DNA of 40,970 bases, taken from Prevotella sp. (GTDB taxonomy: Bacteria > Bacteroidota > Bacteroidia > Bacteroidales > Bacteroidaceae). How positions within the stretch are numbered: the first letter of the stretch is position 1; each line of letters starts with the position of its first letter. The notes below the pieces were generated by a model. That model did no database searches. It saw nothing but the letters and a program-made list of their open reading frames with translations, and had not been told where the DNA came from. Shown one piece after another: positions 18,487-34,164 of the stretch. The position numbers were made by a program, and so were the translations under genes. Location of the stretch: positions 1 through 40,970 of the forward strand of contig JAFZSI010000064.1 of NCBI GenBank assembly GCA_017619445.1. Reading direction: 5' to 3'.

Positions 18487-20289
18487 ATGAAAAAGCAACT
18501 TTTACTCATTGTTGCCATGATGATGGCAATGTGCAGCTATGCAACAATCACGCCTACAGGCAGTCAGTTCTGGTGGGGCTATTTCTCTGAAAGCGAAGCC
18601 AGTGGTGATGACTTTACTAGTTTGGGCACAGGCTATACAGAAGATTTTGACGCGGCAATCCGCATCCCGGCCAATCAAGAAGTTGTGGGCAGTGGCACCA
18701 TCAAGGCTGTCCGTATTTGGATTGGTTCTGCATTATCTTCGTTTAAAAGCCTGAAGGTATGGATTTCGTCGTCGCTCCCCTCTAATGTGTCGAATGCTGA
18801 CTATGTGCAGACTGTTGATGTGAAAGGGCTGGAAAACGGTGCCAACGACATTGAGCTGAATACCCCGTTTGTAATTAATAACAAGGAAGTGTATATAGGT
18901 TACACTGTGTCTATTAAAAGACCTGTTTATCCCATCATGGTGGGCGGTACATGGGTGGAGAATTCCTTATACCTTCGCAGTTCTAAAAACGTCACCCAAT
19001 GGGGTGCTATCAGTGATTTTGGTAAGTTGGCTATGCAGGTGTTGGTTGATGGTGTGGAACTGGTTGGCAACGCTGCAGAACCGACAGCGTTCGGAACAGA
19101 GTATGTGCTAAAAGGACAATCGGTCGATATGCCCGTAAGCATTGTCAATACGGGCAAGAATGACATTAAGTCAATTAGCTATACCATTACCACCAACGGC
19201 AACACTTCGGGCGAGAAAACGATTTCAGTCAATAACATTGGTTCTTATGACTCACAAACCGTTATGATTCCTTTCGCGGCTGATGCCGATGCCAGGAAAT
19301 ATGTGAAAACGCTGACCATCACCAAGGTGAATGGAGTTGCCAACGAGGCTTCGCAGAAAAGTGCCGAGGGTGTGGTGGTAACGATTCTCGAAAAGCCGAC
19401 AGTGATGCCTGTTGTTGAGGAGTTCACCGGCACATGGTGCGGATGGTGTCCCGTTGGTTTTGACGGCCTGGAGAAAATGTACGAGAAATATGGCGACAAG
19501 GTGGCGTTGATAGCCGTTCACTATGGCGATCCGATGGAAACATCCGATTATTCTCCCATCTTGGCACAAGTAGTAGATGGTTTCCCCAGTTCTTTCGTGA
19601 ACAGAGCGTATAGTGTTTATCCAGCCGCAGCAAATCTGGAGTATTATATTGATTACTGTTTGCAGCAAACAGTTCCCGCCGGAATCAAGACCGCAGCCGA
19701 ATGGACTAATGCCGACAAGACCACCATCAAGATTCAAACCTCCACCACCTTTGCATATAGCGACGAGGGTGTTAAGTATGGCATTGCCTATGTGCTTGTT
19801 GAGGATGGCATGAAGGGCACGGGCTCTGACTGGGCACAAAACAACAACCTGAGCGGAAACAGCACTTACAAGGATTTAGAGTTCTGGTATAATGCCGGCT
19901 CAAAGGTGTCAGGCCTGGAGTTCAATCATGTGGCAGTAGCAGCTTGGAATCTTGTGAGTGGTGTGAGCGGCTCTGTCAGTTCCAACGTGAAGGCTGGCGA
20001 GGTGCAGAAACACAATTTCAATGCCGACATTTCCGGTAACAAGCTGATTCAGGACAAGTCGAAGCTGAAGATTATTGCCCTGCTCATCGACCAATCGACA
20101 AACGTGATTGTCAATGCGGCGCAGACCACCATTGGCGCTCCTGGCACCGGCATCGAGGCTGTCAAGAGCACGGCCCAGGAGGTTGTTGGCTACTATACTG
20201 TTGACGGCAAGCGTCTTGCTGCTCCCGTCAAGGGCGTGAACATTGTCCGCATGAGCGACGGTTCGAGCAGAAAGATGGTTGTCAAATAG
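18487..20289 (+). CDS. Omp28-like thioredoxin-fold surface protein with C-terminal sorting-like tail
   Basis: A 600-residue secreted protein. After the signal peptide (cut near MCSYA) come beta-sandwich domains (about residues 25-300), then a thioredoxin-like domain opening EEFTGTWCGWCPVGF, with the redox pair Cys318/Cys321. The last 35 residues (VVGYYTVDGKRL, then KGVNIVRMSDGSSRKMVV) resemble the C-terminal domains used by Bacteroidales proteins for type IX secretion or surface anchoring. The layout fits the Omp28 family; a role in thiol-disulfide exchange at the surface is inferred from CGWC. It is monocistronic with its own promoter and terminator. It is the only SPI-type secreted protein here without Gln after the predicted cut. 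Confidence 0.75.
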   Translation: MKKQLLLIVAMMMAMCSYATITPTGSQFWWGYFSESEASGDDFTSLGTGYTEDFDAAIRIPANQEVVGSGTIKAVRIWIGSALSSFKSLKVWISSSLPSNVSNADYVQTVDVKGLENGANDIELNTPFVINNKEVYIGYTVSIKRPVYPIMVGGTWVENSLYLRSSKNVTQWGAISDFGKLAMQVLVDGVELVGNAAEPTAFGTEYVLKGQSVDMPVSIVNTGKNDIKSISYTITTNGNTSGEKTISVNNIGSYDSQTVMIPFAADADARKYVKTLTITKVNGVANEASQKSAEGVVVTILEKPTVMPVVEEFTGTWCGWCPVGFDGLEKMYEKYGDKVALIAVHYGDPMETSDYSPILAQVVDGFPSSFVNRAYSVYPAAANLEYYIDYCLQQTVPAGIKTAAEWTNADKTTIKIQTSTTFAYSDEGVKYGIAYVLVEDGMKGTGSDWAQNNNLSGNSTYKDLEFWYNAGSKVSGLEFNHVAVAAWNLVSGVSGSVSSNVKAGEVQKHNFNADISGNKLIQDKSKLKIIALLIDQSTNVIVNAAQTTIGAPGTGIEAVKSTAQEVVGYYTVDGKRLAAPVKGVNIVRMSDGSSRKMVVK

Positions 20290-20384: not shown

Positions 20385-20466
20385 AATGAGAAATGAGAAA
20401 TGAGGAATGAGGAATTATCAATTCTCAATTGTCAATTCTCGATTGTCAATTGTCAATTATCAATTC
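20385..20466. repeat. AT-rich simple repeats, TGAGAAATGA and TCAATTCTCAATTG
   Basis: A (RATGAGA)n run is followed by about six near-tandem copies of TCAATTNTC. Similar TCAATTGTCAATTCTC runs occur at 40019-40047, and the reverse complement at 14903-15026. Confidence 0.65.
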
Positions 20467-20475
20467 TCTCCTCTT

Positions 20476-20508
20476 TTACCCCCCCCACCGGGGGCAGGGG
20501 GCTTTTTT
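20476..20508 (+). terminator. GC-rich hairpin next to korB, possible second terminator
   Basis: A run of C, ACC, then GGGGG and GGGGG is followed on the plus strand by CTTTTTTC. It lies two bases past the korB stop on the other strand. It could terminate read-through from the Omp28-like gene or be a dispersed palindrome. Confidence 0.45.
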
Positions 20509-20510
20509 CT

Positions 20511-21515
20511 TTATTGCACCTCCCAGATGTCGTTTGTTTCGAGCAGTTCCATGAAGTTGTGATACTTCTTCTGCTGCGACACCTCGGCTATCTGCTGGTT
20601 CACGGCATCGTTGTAGGTGGGAGCCTCCACGTCGCGGATTACGCCCAGGGCAATGGGGAATCCGTCCTCGTTGCTCATCATGGCCAGCTTCAGCTGCAGG
20701 GTGTTGTCCTCGCAATGGGCGTCGTGCACCAGTACGTCGTCCAGCGTGTAGCCGTCCTTGCCAATCTCCACCACCTTCAGGCCGAAGCCCTCCTGCACCA
20801 GTCCGAACTCGTTGTTCTCGCCGAAGACCAGTTTCTCGCCGTGGCGCACATAGATGGCGTTCTTCTTGCGGCCCTCCTTGTTGTACACGGCATCGTGACA
20901 ATGGTCGTTGAAGATGACGCAATTCTGCAGAATCTCGCATACGGCAGCACCCTTGTGCAGATAAGCAGCCTTCAGCACATTGACGGTCTCTGCTGCATCG
21001 GTGGCCACGGTGCGTGCAAAGAACTTGCCGCGCGCACCGAAACAGAGTTCGGCCGGGCGGAACGGGTCCTCTACGGTGCCGTAAGGGCTCGATTTCGATA
21101 CAAATCCGCGGGGGCTGGTTGGCGAGTATTGTCCTTTGGTCAGACCATAGATGCGGTTGTTCAACAGAATCATGTTCAGGTCGATGTTGCGTCGCATGGC
21201 ATGAATGAAATGGTTGCCACCGATGGCCAGTCCGTCACCGTCGCCGCTCACCTGCCATATCGTCAGGTTGGGGTTAGTCACCTTCGCGCCCGTTGCAATG
21301 GCAGCCGCACGACCGTGGATGGTCTGCATGGCATAGGTGTTTACGTAATAAGGCAGACGGCTCGAACAGCCGATACCACTGATGACTGCCATCTCGTGCG
21401 GGGCAACACCCACCTCAGCCATTGCTTTGTGCAGTGAGGCCAGGAAGAAATGGTCACCACAACCGGGACACCACCTGGGTTGTCCTTTCTTATAATCTTG
21501 TGCTGTATATTCCAT
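20511..21515 (-). CDS. korB: 2-oxoglutarate (2-oxoacid):ferredoxin oxidoreductase, beta subunit
   Basis: KorB (334 residues) is the thiamine-diphosphate-binding subunit of the enzyme that converts 2-oxoglutarate and CoA to succinyl-CoA, or the reverse, with reduced ferredoxin. The N-terminal RWCPGCGDHFFL and the TPP/Mg motif GDGDGLAIGGNHF are intact, with LNNRIYGLTKGQYSPTS completing the cofactor site. In related genomes korB follows korA directly. Here a 627-bp repeat-bounded segment with a GxxExxY gene lies between them, yet both genes are intact and in the same direction. Pyruvate or another 2-oxoacid as substrate is less likely but not excluded. Confidence 0.9.
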   Translation of the reverse strand: MEYTAQDYKKGQPRWCPGCGDHFFLASLHKAMAEVGVAPHEMAVISGIGCSSRLPYYVNTYAMQTIHGRAAAIATGAKVTNPNLTIWQVSGDGDGLAIGGNHFIHAMRRNIDLNMILLNNRIYGLTKGQYSPTSPRGFVSKSSPYGTVEDPFRPAELCFGARGKFFARTVATDAAETVNVLKAAYLHKGAAVCEILQNCVIFNDHCHDAVYNKEGRKKNAIYVRHGEKLVFGENNEFGLVQEGFGLKVVEIGKDGYTLDDVLVHDAHCEDNTLQLKLAMMSNEDGFPIALGVIRDVEAPTYNDAVNQQIAEVSQQKKYHNFMELLETNDIWEVQ

Positions 21516-21555: not shown

Positions 21556-21676
21556 GAACCACAGATTTCTCAGATTTCTCGGATTTTTTTAAATTTGCTG
21601 TTATTATCTCAGATTTCTCAGATTTCTCGGATTTTTTTTTATTTGCTGTTATTATCTCAGATTTCTCAGATTCTAA
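21556..21676. repeat. Family A repeat block, left end of the GxxExxY segment (48-bp direct repeats)
   Basis: It opens with GAACCACAGATTTCTCAGAT. CAGATTTCTCAGATTTCTCG then recurs at 21562 and 21610, with a partial copy at 21658, a 48-bp period with GGATTTTTTT and ATTTGCTGTTATTATCT between. The first 21 bases are the inverted counterpart of 22160-22180. Confidence 0.85.
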
Positions 21677-21704
21677 GTAATGGAACGGAACAAATCAATT
21701 TGTG

Positions 21705-22091
21705 TTATTTATATTCTCCTGTCGCAAAACGCTCAAATCTCAGTGATGTGTCACCAAAATTAAGCAGCAGAGCAACACTATAACCAGCCACTTTTGCATA
21801 GTTGATTGTCTGTGAGCGATGTATGTCATCAATTTCCTTCACAGCCTTCAATTCAACAATCACTTTATCTTCGCATATAAAATCTGGTATGAATTCCGTT
21901 TTCAGCAGTACATCCCTATACATTACCTGTAAAGGCTGTTCGCGTTTATATGAGATGCCTTGAAATATAAATTCTTGTTCTAATGCATCTTGATACACTT
22001 TTTCGGAGAATCCACAACCCAAATAGCGATGAACAGCCATGGCTGCTCCTATGATATCGTGGGTAAGCTGTTTATATTTGAATTCGTCCAT
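21705..22091 (-). CDS. GxxExxY protein (PDDEXK-like)
   Basis: A 128-residue protein with the name-giving motif as GFSEKVY (about residues 28-34) and a PDDEXK-like core: EFIPDFICEDKVIVELKAV supplies an Asp and an ExK pair, followed by INYAKVAGYSVALLLNFG. The family is abundant in Bacteroidetes, Planctomycetes and other groups, usually in scattered, repeat-rich places. Its function is not established; a nuclease fold is likely from the motif. It lies between korA and korB in the same direction and is bounded by inverted family A repeats. No promoter of its own is visible, so it may be expressed by korA read-through. Confidence 0.88.
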   Translation of the reverse strand: MDEFKYKQLTHDIIGAAMAVHRYLGCGFSEKVYQDALEQEFIFQGISYKREQPLQVMYRDVLLKTEFIPDFICEDKVIVELKAVKEIDDIHRSQTINYAKVAGYSVALLLNFGDTSLRFERFATGEYK

Positions 22092-22099
22092 TCTATGCC

Positions 22100-22180
22100 G
22101 AAATCTGTGAAATCCCGAGAATCTTAGATTCTCATCAATCTCAATAGATAAATCTGTTCAATCTGTGAAATCTGTGGTTC
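22100..22180. repeat. Family A repeat block, right end of the GxxExxY segment
   Basis: AAATCTGTGAAATCCCGAGA, a short palindrome AGAATCTTAGATTCT, and AATCTGTGAAATCTGTGGTT ending in C at 22180. The korA stop codon begins six bases further on. Confidence 0.8.
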
Positions 22181-22185
22181 CTTAA

Positions 22186-24036
22186 CTACGCTTTAAGTAT
22201 CTTCTCAAACGCATCCACAAGTTCGCTGACCACGAAAGGCTGGCCCTTCACCTGGTTGAACTGATAGGGCACGAAGCCATCCACGTTGGCGCGCAGATAG
22301 GCGGCAAGCTGTCCGAGGTTTTGTTCGGCCACCACCACCTTATTATATTTCTTCAGCACCTCGGCGGTGTTCTTCGGCAGCGGGTTGATGAACTTCAGCT
22401 GAGCCTGAGCCACCTTATGGCCCTTCTTCCGCAGTTCCTCCATGGCCGAAACCAAGTGTCCGTAAGTAGAGCCGAAGCCCACGATGAGCAGGTCGGCATC
22501 GTCAGCGTCACCCGTCACCTCGAGGTCGGGCACCTGTATCTTTGCCACTTTCTCGGCGCGCAGATGGCACATCAAGTTGTGGTTCTCGGGTTCCGTACTG
22601 ATGGCACCCGTCTTGCCGTCCTTCTCTAAGCCGCCCAGGATATGCGTATAGCCCTCCTGTCCGGGGATGGCCCAGTAGCGCACCTTTGTCTCCTCGTCGC
22701 GGTAGTACGGCGTGTAGTTGCCTTTCATCTCGGGAGTGACGTAATGAGGTTTGATGGCGGGCAGCTCGTTGATGTCAGGCAGTTTCCAGGCACCCGAGCC
22801 GTTGGCCACGAAAGCGTCGGTGAGCAGGATGACCGGCGTCAGGTGTTCCAGGGCAATCTTCGCAGCCTGATACACCGCATCGAAGCAGTCCGTGGGGCTC
22901 AGTGCTGCGATGACAGGCATGGGGCTTTCGCCGTTGCGCCCGTAGAGTGCCTGCAGCAAGTCGGTCTGTTCGCTCTTCGTGGGCAGACCCGTTGAGGGGC
23001 CGCCGCGCTGCACGTCGATAATCACCAATGGCAGCTCGTCGATGACCGCCAGGTTCATGGCCTCGCTCTTCAGGCAGATGCCAGGGCCAGAAGTGCTGGT
23101 AGCAGCCAGTGCACCGGCGAACGAAGCTCCCACGGCACTCGCGCAACCGCTGATTTCGTCCTCGCACTGCACCGTAATCACGCCGCACGACTTATGTTTC
23201 GACAACTCGTGCAGGATGTCTGTGGCCGGTGTAATGGGGTAGGAGCCGAGGAACAGCTTCAGGCCAGCCTTCTCGGCGGCAGCAATCAGTCCGTAGGCCG
23301 TAGCCTTGTTGCCCGTGATGTCCATATAGCGTCCGGGCACCTTCTCTTTCGATTCAATGCGATAGGTAGCAGGCACGCTCGAGTGCGTGTTGTGTCCGTA
23401 GTCGTAGCCGGCCTGCACCACCTTGATGTTGTTCTCGGCGATGGCCGGTTTCTTGGCAAACTTCTCCCGCAGGAAATTGTTCACCAGGTTCAGGTCGCGG
23501 TTGAACAACCAGCACACCAGTCCCAGTGCAAACATGTTGCGGCACTTCAGCACCGCCTTGTTGTCCATGCCCGAGTCCTTCAGGCACTCCTTCACCATCT
23601 GTGTGAGCGGGCACTGAATCACGCGGTCCGCGTCGATGCCCATCTCGCCCAGGTAGTCCTCGGTCTGGAAAGCCGCCTTCTTCAGGTCGTTCGGGCCAAA
23701 CGAGTCCGTGTCAATGATAATCGTCGCCTGCGGCTTCGCATACTTCAGCTGTGTCTTCAGTGCGGCCGCGTTCATGGCCACCAACACGTCGCACAGGTCG
23801 CCCGGCGTATAGACTTTGCCAGCGCCGATGTGCACCTGGAAACCGCTGACGCCCGTCAGCGAGCCCTGCGGGGCGCGGATGTCGGCCGGATAGTCGGGGA
23901 ATGTGGAAATTCCGTTGCCCACGGTGGCGCTCACCGTGGAGAAGATGTTTCCGGCCAGCTGCATGCCATCGCCGGAATCACCAGAGAAGCGGACCACAAC
24001 CTGGTCCAGCTCTTTCACTTCTAATTGTTCTGCCAT
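22186..24036 (-). CDS. korA: 2-oxoglutarate (2-oxoacid):ferredoxin oxidoreductase, fused gamma-alpha subunit
   Basis: A 616-residue chain with the gamma domain at the N-terminus (about residues 1-190; VVRFSGDSGDGM and FPDYPADIRAPQGS) fused to the alpha domain (about 200-616; SYPITPATDILHELSKH, VQRGGPSTGLPTKSEQTDLL), the usual form of KorA in Bacteroidetes. With KorB it links 2-oxoglutarate and succinyl-CoA using ferredoxin. The start at 24036 (MAEQLEVKEL) is preferred because the ATG at 24093 falls in the promoter. A promoter with consensus spacing lies at 24091-24121. The stop is six bases from the right end of the GxxExxY segment, suggesting insertion very close to the gene's end. Confidence 0.9.
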   Translation of the reverse strand: MAEQLEVKELDQVVVRFSGDSGDGMQLAGNIFSTVSATVGNGISTFPDYPADIRAPQGSLTGVSGFQVHIGAGKVYTPGDLCDVLVAMNAAALKTQLKYAKPQATIIIDTDSFGPNDLKKAAFQTEDYLGEMGIDADRVIQCPLTQMVKECLKDSGMDNKAVLKCRNMFALGLVCWLFNRDLNLVNNFLREKFAKKPAIAENNIKVVQAGYDYGHNTHSSVPATYRIESKEKVPGRYMDITGNKATAYGLIAAAEKAGLKLFLGSYPITPATDILHELSKHKSCGVITVQCEDEISGCASAVGASFAGALAATSTSGPGICLKSEAMNLAVIDELPLVIIDVQRGGPSTGLPTKSEQTDLLQALYGRNGESPMPVIAALSPTDCFDAVYQAAKIALEHLTPVILLTDAFVANGSGAWKLPDINELPAIKPHYVTPEMKGNYTPYYRDEETKVRYWAIPGQEGYTHILGGLEKDGKTGAISTEPENHNLMCHLRAEKVAKIQVPDLEVTGDADDADLLIVGFGSTYGHLVSAMEELRKKGHKVAQAQLKFINPLPKNTAEVLKKYNKVVVAEQNLGQLAAYLRANVDGFVPYQFNQVKGQPFVVSELVDAFEKILKA

Positions 24037-24090
24037 AATAAATATGATTACAAAATTTACTGATTTTCTTCTTACATTAAAAAAACGCTG

Positions 24091-24121
24091 CAAAGTTCGT
24101 CATTTTTTGCGACATGACAAA
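24091..24121 (-). promoter_or_regulatory. Promoter of korA
   Basis: Minus strand: TTTG (24118-24121), 19 nt, GAACTTTG (24091-24098), one mismatch to TAnnTTTG. The predicted leader is about 48 nt before the ATG at 24036, which supports that start. Confidence 0.6.
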
Positions 24122-33165: not shown

Positions 33166-33213
33166 ACTAACATAATTTTCAGTAACATATTAATAAAGTA
33201 AGGAGAACGGATG

Positions 33214-34164
33214 ATGAAGTATAGGATGGTGAAAGAAAACAGACCGACGCTGAAGAACTTCGGGCGGTGGAAGGCTGTGGCGGTGCACGAGCGGACGGTG
33301 GAGACGCGGCAAGTGGTTAGGGAGGTTTGCCGACGCACAGGAGCTTCGCGCGGCTCGGTCATGGCGGTGCTGATTGAGCTGGCGGGGGTTGTTAGTGAGC
33401 ATCTGCGCGAGGGCGACCGCGTGCGGATAGACGATTTCGGACTGCTGAAGCTGGAAATTGAGGGTGATAAGTTGGATGATGAGGAGTTGGAAGAGCTGGA
33501 GCGGCAGCGAAAATCTGCGAAATCCGTAAACAACGAGAAAAAAGGGAAAACAGAAGAATCTGAGAAATCTGAGAAATCTGTGGTCCTGAAAGAATCCGGG
33601 AAATCTGTGGTTCGGGGAGTGCGGTTGCACGTGTTGGCCGAGAGCCGTCACGGGCGGCAGGCGCTGTACGAGGGAATAAAATTTGAGAAGACGGGTGACA
33701 GACCGAAGAAACATACTGCAGATAGGATAGGGAGCAGTGTGGAGGGCAGTGTGAACAGTTTTACGAAGGGCGAAGAAACTGCAAAAAACCTAAAAACTGA
33801 TGAAAAGAAAGGCGAGAATGACAAAATAGTTGTATCTTTGCGCCAAAATACAAAAATCCGACATGTCAGTTACTTCACAACACCGTTTTATGATAGTGAA
33901 GCGCAGGGTGCTCGCAATGGCCTTGTGCTGGATGTTTGTGGCAGTGGCAGCGGTGGCGCAGACCGCCCGCCCGGGGCATGTGAACCCCGAGGACCGCAAG
34001 GTGGACATGGACTCGCCCACATTTGTGCCGATGCTGAAGATGGGCAAGGTGCTGCTGGACGGCGACTCGGTGCAGTATATGGAACTGAACAAGGTGTATG
34101 TGTATCCCGAACCCACGTTCAAAAACGAGAAACAGCGGGCTGCCTACAACCGGCTGGTGTATAA
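33214..34164 (+). CDS. HU-like (HU-HIG type) DNA-binding protein, second copy, with repeat-derived insert
   Basis: A paralogue of the protein at 108. The first 85 residues match closely (MKYRMVKENRPTLKNFGRWK, GASRGSVMAVLIELAGVV, IDDFGLLKLEIE), as does the downstream RGVRLHVLAESRHGRQALYE. Between them is an extra stretch of about 40 residues, rich in Glu, Lys and Ser (EESEKSEKSVV, KESGKSVV). At DNA level it is the family A repeat, so the protein has taken up a copy in frame. As in the first copy, no stop follows the HU domain, and the frame overlaps the DUF4294 gene by 275 nt, ending at 34164. AAGGAG stands eight bases before this ATG; 33211 is the alternative. Confidence 0.72.
   Translation: MKYRMVKENRPTLKNFGRWKAVAVHERTVETRQVVREVCRRTGASRGSVMAVLIELAGVVSEHLREGDRVRIDDFGLLKLEIEGDKLDDEELEELERQRKSAKSVNNEKKGKTEESEKSEKSVVLKESGKSVVRGVRLHVLAESRHGRQALYEGIKFEKTGDRPKKHTADRIGSSVEGSVNSFTKGEETAKNLKTDEKKGENDKIVVSLRQNTKIRHVSYFTTPFYDSEAQGARNGLVLDVCGSGSGGADRPPGACEPRGPQGGHGLAHICADAEDGQGAAGRRLGAVYGTEQGVCVSRTHVQKRETAGCLQPAGV
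33509..33615. repeat. Family A repeat inside the HU-like coding sequence
   Basis: AATCTGCGAAATCCGTAAAC, GAATCTGAGAAATCTGAGAA, ATCTGTGGTCC and AATCCGGGAAATCTGTGGTT are the same words as the right end of the GxxExxY segment. The first HU copy lacks this stretch. Confidence 0.8.
33833..33840 (+). promoter_or_regulatory. Promoter -7 box for DUF4294
   Basis: TATCTTTG matches TAnnTTTG within the HU tail and would start transcription near 33847. Surrounding bases (33802-33840) resemble 513-551 in the first HU gene, where the box reads TACCTTTA. No clear upstream element. Confidence 0.5.

Follow-up and report, generated by a model that had tools for sequence, protein, structure and literature searches.

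A GxxExxY gene between inverted word-array arms is a recurrent, patchy occupant of the korA-korB junction in Prevotella and related genera

The gap between korA and korB in a Prevotella sp. contig is occupied by a cassette in which one GxxExxY ORF lies between two inverted arms of short words, in the sense direction of the intercistronic gap. The window, by which we mean the whole analysed stretch of 40,970 nucleotides (JAFZSI010000064.1), contains the features collected in Table 1. The cassette sits a few nucleotides past the upstream stop codon and a few nucleotides ahead of the downstream start codon, and it is patchily distributed. Its phylogeny at korA-korB is uncoupled from both flanking genes, its arm words there follow the ORF, and close GxxExxY relatives are found at this junction far more often than elsewhere. 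The first-pass annotation had envisaged a single insertion event; the cassette is instead a recurrent occupant of korA-korB in many species. It is quite probably mobile, and the reading that we favour, at an even chance, is a single-gene mobile operon guest that behaves like a homing intervening sequence.

Table 1. Positions of the cassette, its parts and its host genes in the window
Feature	Position	Strand	Remark
Whole cassette: arm, GxxExxY gene, arm	21556..22180	-	Inverted ends; GxxExxY at the same junction in 14/90 genus junctions
Gene-5' arm, outer end: ACCACAGATT-TC-ACAGATT words; array extends inward to about 22150	22160..22180	-	
Gene-3' arm, outer end: ACCACAGATT-TC-TCAGATT-TC-TCGGATT words	21556..21585	+	
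48-nt tandem duplication in the 3' arm: 21562-21609 / 21610-21657, 96%; partial word copy on to 21672	21562..21657	+	
GxxExxY gene, 128 aa	21705..22091	-	TIGR04256, PF13366
korA, 2-oxoacid:ferredoxin oxidoreductase alpha subunit, upstream host gene	22186..24093	-	TIGR03710, 662 bits
korB, 2-oxoacid:ferredoxin oxidoreductase beta subunit, downstream host gene	20511..21515	-	TIGR02177, PF02775

The ends GAACCACAGATTTCTCAGATT (21556-21576) and AATCTGTGAAATCTGTGGTTC (22160-22180) are inverted copies that match at 20 of 21 positions and enclose the single GxxExxY gene, and a repeat search extends the pair to 41-nt arms at 78%. This pair and the 48-bp direct repeat of the same words to the left of the gene had both been described in the first-pass annotation and are confirmed by the sequence. 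The ends do start just past the korA stop codon, at a measured distance of 5 nt (22181-22185) and not the 6 nt given earlier. Both korA and korB are intact, in agreement with the earlier proposal of a repeat-bounded unit that entered the operon without breaking either gene; korB scores 244 bits for TIGR02177, under the cut-off of 261.9, and 100 bits for PF02775, over the cut-off. Allowing up to two mismatches, the pattern ACCACAGATTNNNCAGATT has 35 matches in the cassette's own genome, and a reversed control pattern has none. The dispersed end pattern occurs there as paired copies about 174 bp long and as single copies, and four GxxExxY genes were found in the same genome.

Related words are also found elsewhere. 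In the own genome, elements of about 174 bp that have comparable inverted ends but no room for the GxxExxY ORF lie at C37:68-241, C49:14624-14797 and C74:28468-28641 (L015, L017 and L021), and one end of this type is present at 9-27, at the left edge of the window. An HU-like ORF on the forward strand (33211-34164; PF18291 HU-HIG) contains four copies of the AATCTGNGAAATCTGTGGT word within 33512-33611. Their spacings of 45, 9 and 27 nt are multiples of 9, and the words may therefore enter coding sequence in frame; similar AATCTGNGAAATCTGTGGT-like copies in a similar sequence context occur at C15, C45 and C47 (L005, L008 and L010). An array of TCAATTG, TCAATTA and TCAATTC words with a 14-nt period occupies 20400-20482 of the window, past an ORF ending at 20289, and similar ATTGACA/ATTGATA words flank a four-helix-bundle gene at another locus (L280).

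Arms at other GxxExxY loci were scored in 150-nt flanks with a threshold of 14 for the inverted score, one of the 26 kor loci being dropped because of a short flank. The threshold was reached by 22/25 GxxExxY loci at kor, 53/90 elsewhere in the genus and 35/75 across phyla (37/90 and 40/75, respectively, fall below it), compared with 6/104 control genes and 1/179 random windows. Since the flank scores lie far above the controls and the end pattern in the own genome has 35 matches against none for its reversed control, the inverted ends are not a product of chance. The 75 cross-phylum loci, drawn from among the matches listed, represent 13 named phyla, of which eight contain armed loci by this controlled measure; if the flanks are widened to 300 nt, 11 named phyla have loci scoring at least 14, but that measure has no gene control and the 150-nt count is preferred. 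Own-arm complementarity averages 22.2 at 32 non-kor loci against 9.4 for cross-locus comparisons, and 18.0 against 10.4 at the 75 cross-phylum loci, where the own partner is best both ways in 14. Inverted ends had been predicted at other GxxExxY loci, and many have them, but the words are locus-specific even inside one genome, and not the fixed GAACCACAGATTT that had been expected.

The cassettes also share orientation and spacing. The gene lies in sense between co-directional genes at 53/69 cross-phylum loci (antisense 3), at 20/29 genus loci (antisense 1) and at 65/82 loci of a larger non-kor genus set (antisense 3), while 38 control triples comprise 17 sense and 7 antisense cases. These orientations come from simple ORF calling, which places an antisense ORF downstream in 6/24 kor loci; in the window itself, the downstream antisense call is a forward-strand ORF over korB. 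Among the loci whose arms are clear (14 at kor, 45 elsewhere in the genus and 19 across phyla), the left-arm end follows the upstream stop codon by medians of 7.5, 15 and 3 nt, and the right-arm end precedes the downstream start codon by medians of 16, 24 and -3 nt, respectively.

The ends are arrays of words of about 7 nt at a spacing of about 9 nt, whose letters vary by species and locus, and the words match best between both ends of one locus or of related loci. The arms at kor follow the mirror-image pattern [ACC]ACNNATT-nn-ACNNATT-nn-ACNNATT, with AG, GA, TA or GG at NN depending on the species, and AAAGATT words are the alternative in some species. Own-arm complementarity at kor is 20.9 against 12.1 between loci, a value reached in none of 20,000 permutations. 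In a fixed register picked for best match, with 24 word columns and four spacer columns, the own-arm match is at least 85% in 17 of the word columns; in the spacer columns it is 27, 73, 46 and 50%, against cross-locus values of 34-41%. This contrast between words and spacers is as compatible with words bound by a protein as with a stem. The word types, as judged by eye, show 6 changes on the tree of GxxExxY (gx) proteins (minimum 5; 5,000 shuffles never gave fewer than 10) as opposed to 12 on the kor tree, where they are also slightly clustered (P 0.024). Since the arms of a locus match each other and the word types track the gx tree, the arms mostly belong to the ORF-carrying unit. Strict co-travel of arms and ORF is contradicted by one pair at different loci (L039 and L315), in which the proteins are 93.5% identical and the DNA similarity ends at the ORF ends.

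In minimum-free-energy RNA folds, the two arms pair at all 26 kor loci, with 24-92 pairs. The arm duplexes are about equally stable in either strand, the sense strand being stronger in 10/26 and weaker in 16/26, and the own partner outranks every other arm in only 6/26 rows and 7/26 columns. Strand asymmetry thus gives no sign of selection at the RNA level, the sense strand not being the more stable, and arm stability leaves the RNA and DNA levels indistinguishable. Two variants of the layout were observed. In one locus (L035 1459-2358; G086 C68), two equal-scoring GxxExxY genes form a tandem at a distance of 495 bp, both having ACTACGGATT-type arms, and two loci of one GxxExxY lineage (L030 and L039) have a complete palindrome or tandem array on each side in place of the halves of an inverted pair.

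A survey of 90 korA-korB junctions from the genus found GxxExxY in 14, including one decayed copy (L095), a PF05635 23S_rRNA_IVP four-helix-bundle gene in 6, a DUF559 gene in 2, and none of the three families in 68. GxxExxY is thus patchy and not conserved at this spot in all relatives, as had been anticipated. The junction PF05635 genes score 68.9-93.9 bits (cut-off 33.8) and have TTAAGAA-type words at their ends, one copy being broken (L121); the two DUF559 genes (L068 and L079) lie between CCCCCTCGGGGGC-type ends. Four of the 68 junctions without these families retain an arm pair or a single arm. As read by eye, one keeps both arms around a shortened ORF (L062, arm score 18), one is a bare palindrome of 9-nt words (L065, arm score 16.5), and two have one arm each remaining (L087 and L090). 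The korA-korB gap is shorter than 25 nt in 41/90 junctions. Target duplication was not visible in the 14 best filled/empty pairs, which come from different species with a combined flank identity of at most 0.90, and the sampled genus junctions yielded no exact empty site and no same-species filled/empty pair. The empty site with target duplication for which the first-pass annotation had proposed to search was therefore not found in the junctions compared. At one locus (L097/L165; G025 C79), the korA next to the cassette has a premature stop codon and the remaining korA reading lies in the gap, which reflects a frameshift or an assembly error.

The architecture of the GxxExxY cassettes also holds for the four-helix-bundle and DUF559 genes that occupy the same junction in other species. 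With the threshold of 14 applied to 200-nt flanks, 23/30 four-helix-bundle loci and 12/14 stand-alone DUF559 loci of the genus pass, and none is antisense between co-directional genes. DUF559 domains within longer ORFs, which serve as an internal negative control, pass in 1/12 cases. The arms are weaker in a phylum-wide sample of four-helix-bundle (S23) genes, in which 9/29 pass and 4/29 are antisense between co-directional genes; this sample retains at least three apparently mis-called ORFs of 725-1106 aa (L406, L407 and L419). A paralogous 2-oxoacid oxidoreductase operon also carries DUF559 cassettes, placed between its alpha and beta genes (L284 in G059 and L286 in G034); in the former, the upstream gene seems, on inspection by eye, to take its C-terminus and stop codon from the arm.

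A search of 249 genus genomes with the window protein gave 26 matches of at least 135 bits (53-100% identity by tblastn); every one of these sits at the korA-korB junction, and none shows a strand conflict. The next four loci fetched below 135 bits are not at kor (L170-L173), and a weaker match of 88 bits in G097 is at kor again (L063). In a family sample of 399 genomes, from which 29 loci were fetched and two further listed matches left out, 20/29 loci, all from other genera, are at korA-korB and 9/29 are elsewhere; two of these nine are without arms (L396 and L400). A strict rule that the gene is always at kor therefore fails, since it holds for 26/26 matches in the genus at this threshold but for only 20/29 loci in other genera.

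The relationship between the cassette and its neighbours was analysed with trees of 24 loci, comparing the GxxExxY proteins with the flanking KorA and KorB, for which most nodes are weakly supported. The two trees conflict, with AU p values of 1.3e-8 (gx data against the kor tree) and 8.8e-56. The gx data reject the three kor clades with bootstrap of at least 95 (dlnL 109, AU p=1.8e-4), and the kor data reject the gx clades with bootstrap of at least 95 (dlnL 601, p=0.002). On the tree of the 90 junctions, with 14 filled tips, GxxExxY presence takes 13 changes. On the kor tree it takes 19, a distribution about as scattered as shuffled labels (mean 21, minimum 17), and gain and loss events are therefore uncountable. 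The conflicting trees and the scattered presence indicate that the cassette has been exchanged or regained at kor independently of both neighbours. A site preference is thereby combined with a phylogeny independent of the flanking genes, as in homing endonuclease genes.

The window protein scores 135.3 bits for TIGR04256 GxxExxY (cut-off 35) and 130 bits for PF13366 PDDEXK_3 (cut-off 22), which upholds its earlier designation as PDDEXK-like. The PD-(D/E)XK residues E30, D70, E80, K82, Q94 and Y98 are invariant in 18/18 aligned sequences, and the AF2 model (pLDDT 94) gives structural matches to Cas4- and Hjc-type chains. The invariant residues and the model place the protein in the PD-(D/E)XK superfamily, which is marked by a catalytic D...E-x-K on a conserved fold, and nuclease activity is predicted. 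Assignment as a junction resolvase by sequence is a lead, since the matches to chains named endonuclease I are weak (E 0.05-0.86, 4/5 matches). A role as a defence system was set aside after two GxxExxY proteins gave no match in PADLOC or PHROG. Carriage by phages or conjugative plasmids was rejected on GxxExxY counts of 0/50,697 phage records and 8/72,556 plasmid records, all eight of which are called non-mobilizable.

By analogy, the combination of a nuclease-like ORF, a preferred site, patchiness and a flank-independent phylogeny would be the pattern of homing elements, and the mirror-image arms hugging the stop and start codons, together with the strong sense bias, would suit a guest looped out of the mRNA by folding, as is the case for rRNA intervening sequences. 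The PD-(D/E)XK protein may be active in cutting DNA and so help a copy of the cassette to enter an unoccupied junction; it would cleave either the target itself or branched or cruciform structures to which the arms can give rise. The GxxExxY nuclease could thus itself move the cassette, which the first-pass annotation had taken to travel without a transposase of its own. In the polycistronic mRNA, the arms would pair and loop the guest out, restoring a near-native korA-korB spacing, and the operon would tolerate the guest because of this looping. The looped-out arms may expose an RNase III site, as in the 23S rRNA intervening sequence (IVS). Cassettes would be lost again through deletion, of which L062, L087 and L090 may be relics.

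Other readings account for parts of these data. The first-pass annotation regarded the unit as a passive MITE-like cassette, with the ORF as cargo and the arms recognised in trans by an unrelated transposase. Arm pairs too short for an ORF do exist, both as the elements of about 174 bp and at the junction (L062 and L065), and non-kor cassettes with 70-90% protein identity differ in locus, only 15/51 pairs sharing a neighbour gene, a count from which contig ends hide some. This reading is nevertheless unlikely, given the strong sense bias, the lack of target duplication in the compared pairs and the preference for one junction, and one transposase could hardly follow the word changes between loci. 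A Y1/RAYT mover in particular is disfavoured, as the cassette's own genome (85% complete) has a single match, which stays under the cut-off, and 4/12 chosen relatives have none; one of these four, G094, is 99% complete and contains six GxxExxY genes. The words could also be ordinary dispersed REP-like intergenic repeats that flank GxxExxY by coincidence. Their scatter over the genome and their presence inside the HU-like gene suit such an origin, but the excess of armed GxxExxY loci over control genes and random windows, and the better average match of same-locus ends than of ends from different loci, make it highly improbable.

Protein-binding iterons are the main alternative, in view of the mismatches in most spacer columns and the lack of a favoured strand. 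The arms would here be operator or iteron sites bound by GxxExxY itself, for self-regulation or self-cutting immunity, and the covariation would reflect co-evolving specificity in place of pairing. Between-arm word matching exceeds three of the four spacer columns, and the word types follow the protein tree and are locus-specific within one genome, all of which this explanation would accommodate. It has more difficulty with the four-helix-bundle and DUF559 genes, which share the arm layout, and symmetrical flanking on both sides of an ORF is unusual for an operator; we consider it doubtful. Alternatively, GxxExxY may be an old and useful member of the kor operon, with arms serving as RNA insulators or processing stems and patchiness arising from repeated loss. 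The exclusive sense placement of the 26 strong genus matches at kor, the pairing of the arms in every kor RNA fold and the relics L062, L087 and L090, which indicate loss, are in line with such a resident gene. The tree conflict, however, persists when only well-supported clades are imposed, two unrelated families occupy the same junction in other species, and most surveyed junctions contain none of the three families. A resident accessory gene therefore appears improbable.

The mobile operon guest may be one example of a general class, in which at least three small-protein families travel as sense single-gene cassettes with inverted short-word arms in operon gaps, korA-korB being a shared landing site, armed GxxExxY cassettes extending to at least eight bacterial phyla and the rRNA IVS forming the special case that lodges in rRNA operons. 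We advance this generalization tentatively, at slightly under an even chance, and hold with the same reserve the accompanying idea that the letters of the arms change fast from locus to locus while both arms of a locus remain matched. The names of GxxExxY, S23/IVP and DUF559 genes go no further than a motif, a location or 'unknown function', and a shared architecture would give the three families a common, testable biology, that of mobile guests tolerated by operons. rRNA intervening sequences would thereby gain a counterpart in mRNA operons, some of the short dispersed word repeats in these genomes would have an explanation for their origin, and korA-korB would become a natural system for measuring guest gain and loss. 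The literature searched, which mostly did not include subscription journals and bioRxiv, contained no account of such operon cassettes and none of six arm-repeat strings; the term GxxExxY occurs in PMC8934634 and PMC12085832.

Among known systems, the 23S rRNA IVS with its S23/IVP ORF (PF05635, TIGR02436) likewise places a small ORF between stem-forming inverted ends with tandem words alongside, and the self-complementary ends around one ORF by which such sequences are recognised are present in the cassette. An IVP-family gene also shares the korA-korB junction in 6/90 cases. In Coxiella, according to PMC4990558, a terminal stem of 28 bp closes the 23S IVS, which RNase III excises, and tandem heptamers stand next to its S23 ORF. 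The cassette differs in its cargo, a PD-(D/E)XK-type protein, and in lying between korA and korB, whereas the IVS lies in an rRNA gene. With homing endonuclease genes it shares a nuclease-like ORF, strong site preference, sporadic presence and a flank-uncoupled phylogeny; those genes, however, target introns, inteins or coding sequence, while the cassette occupies an intercistronic gap, has inverted word-array arms and a predicted nuclease, and has 9/29 of its family relatives at other loci. MITEs and REP/BIME palindromes also have short inverted ends, gene-less short derivatives and genomic dispersal, but the cassette contains an intact, conserved, sense-biased gene and shows no target duplication in the compared pairs. 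The Y1 transposase that defines the REP/RAYT system is missing from some cassette carriers. On the protein side, the Cas4/RecB-like, Hjc and endonuclease I PD-(D/E)XK nucleases are among the closest known systems. Taken together, the cassette is akin to an intervening sequence or a homing gene, with a real chance of forming a class of its own.
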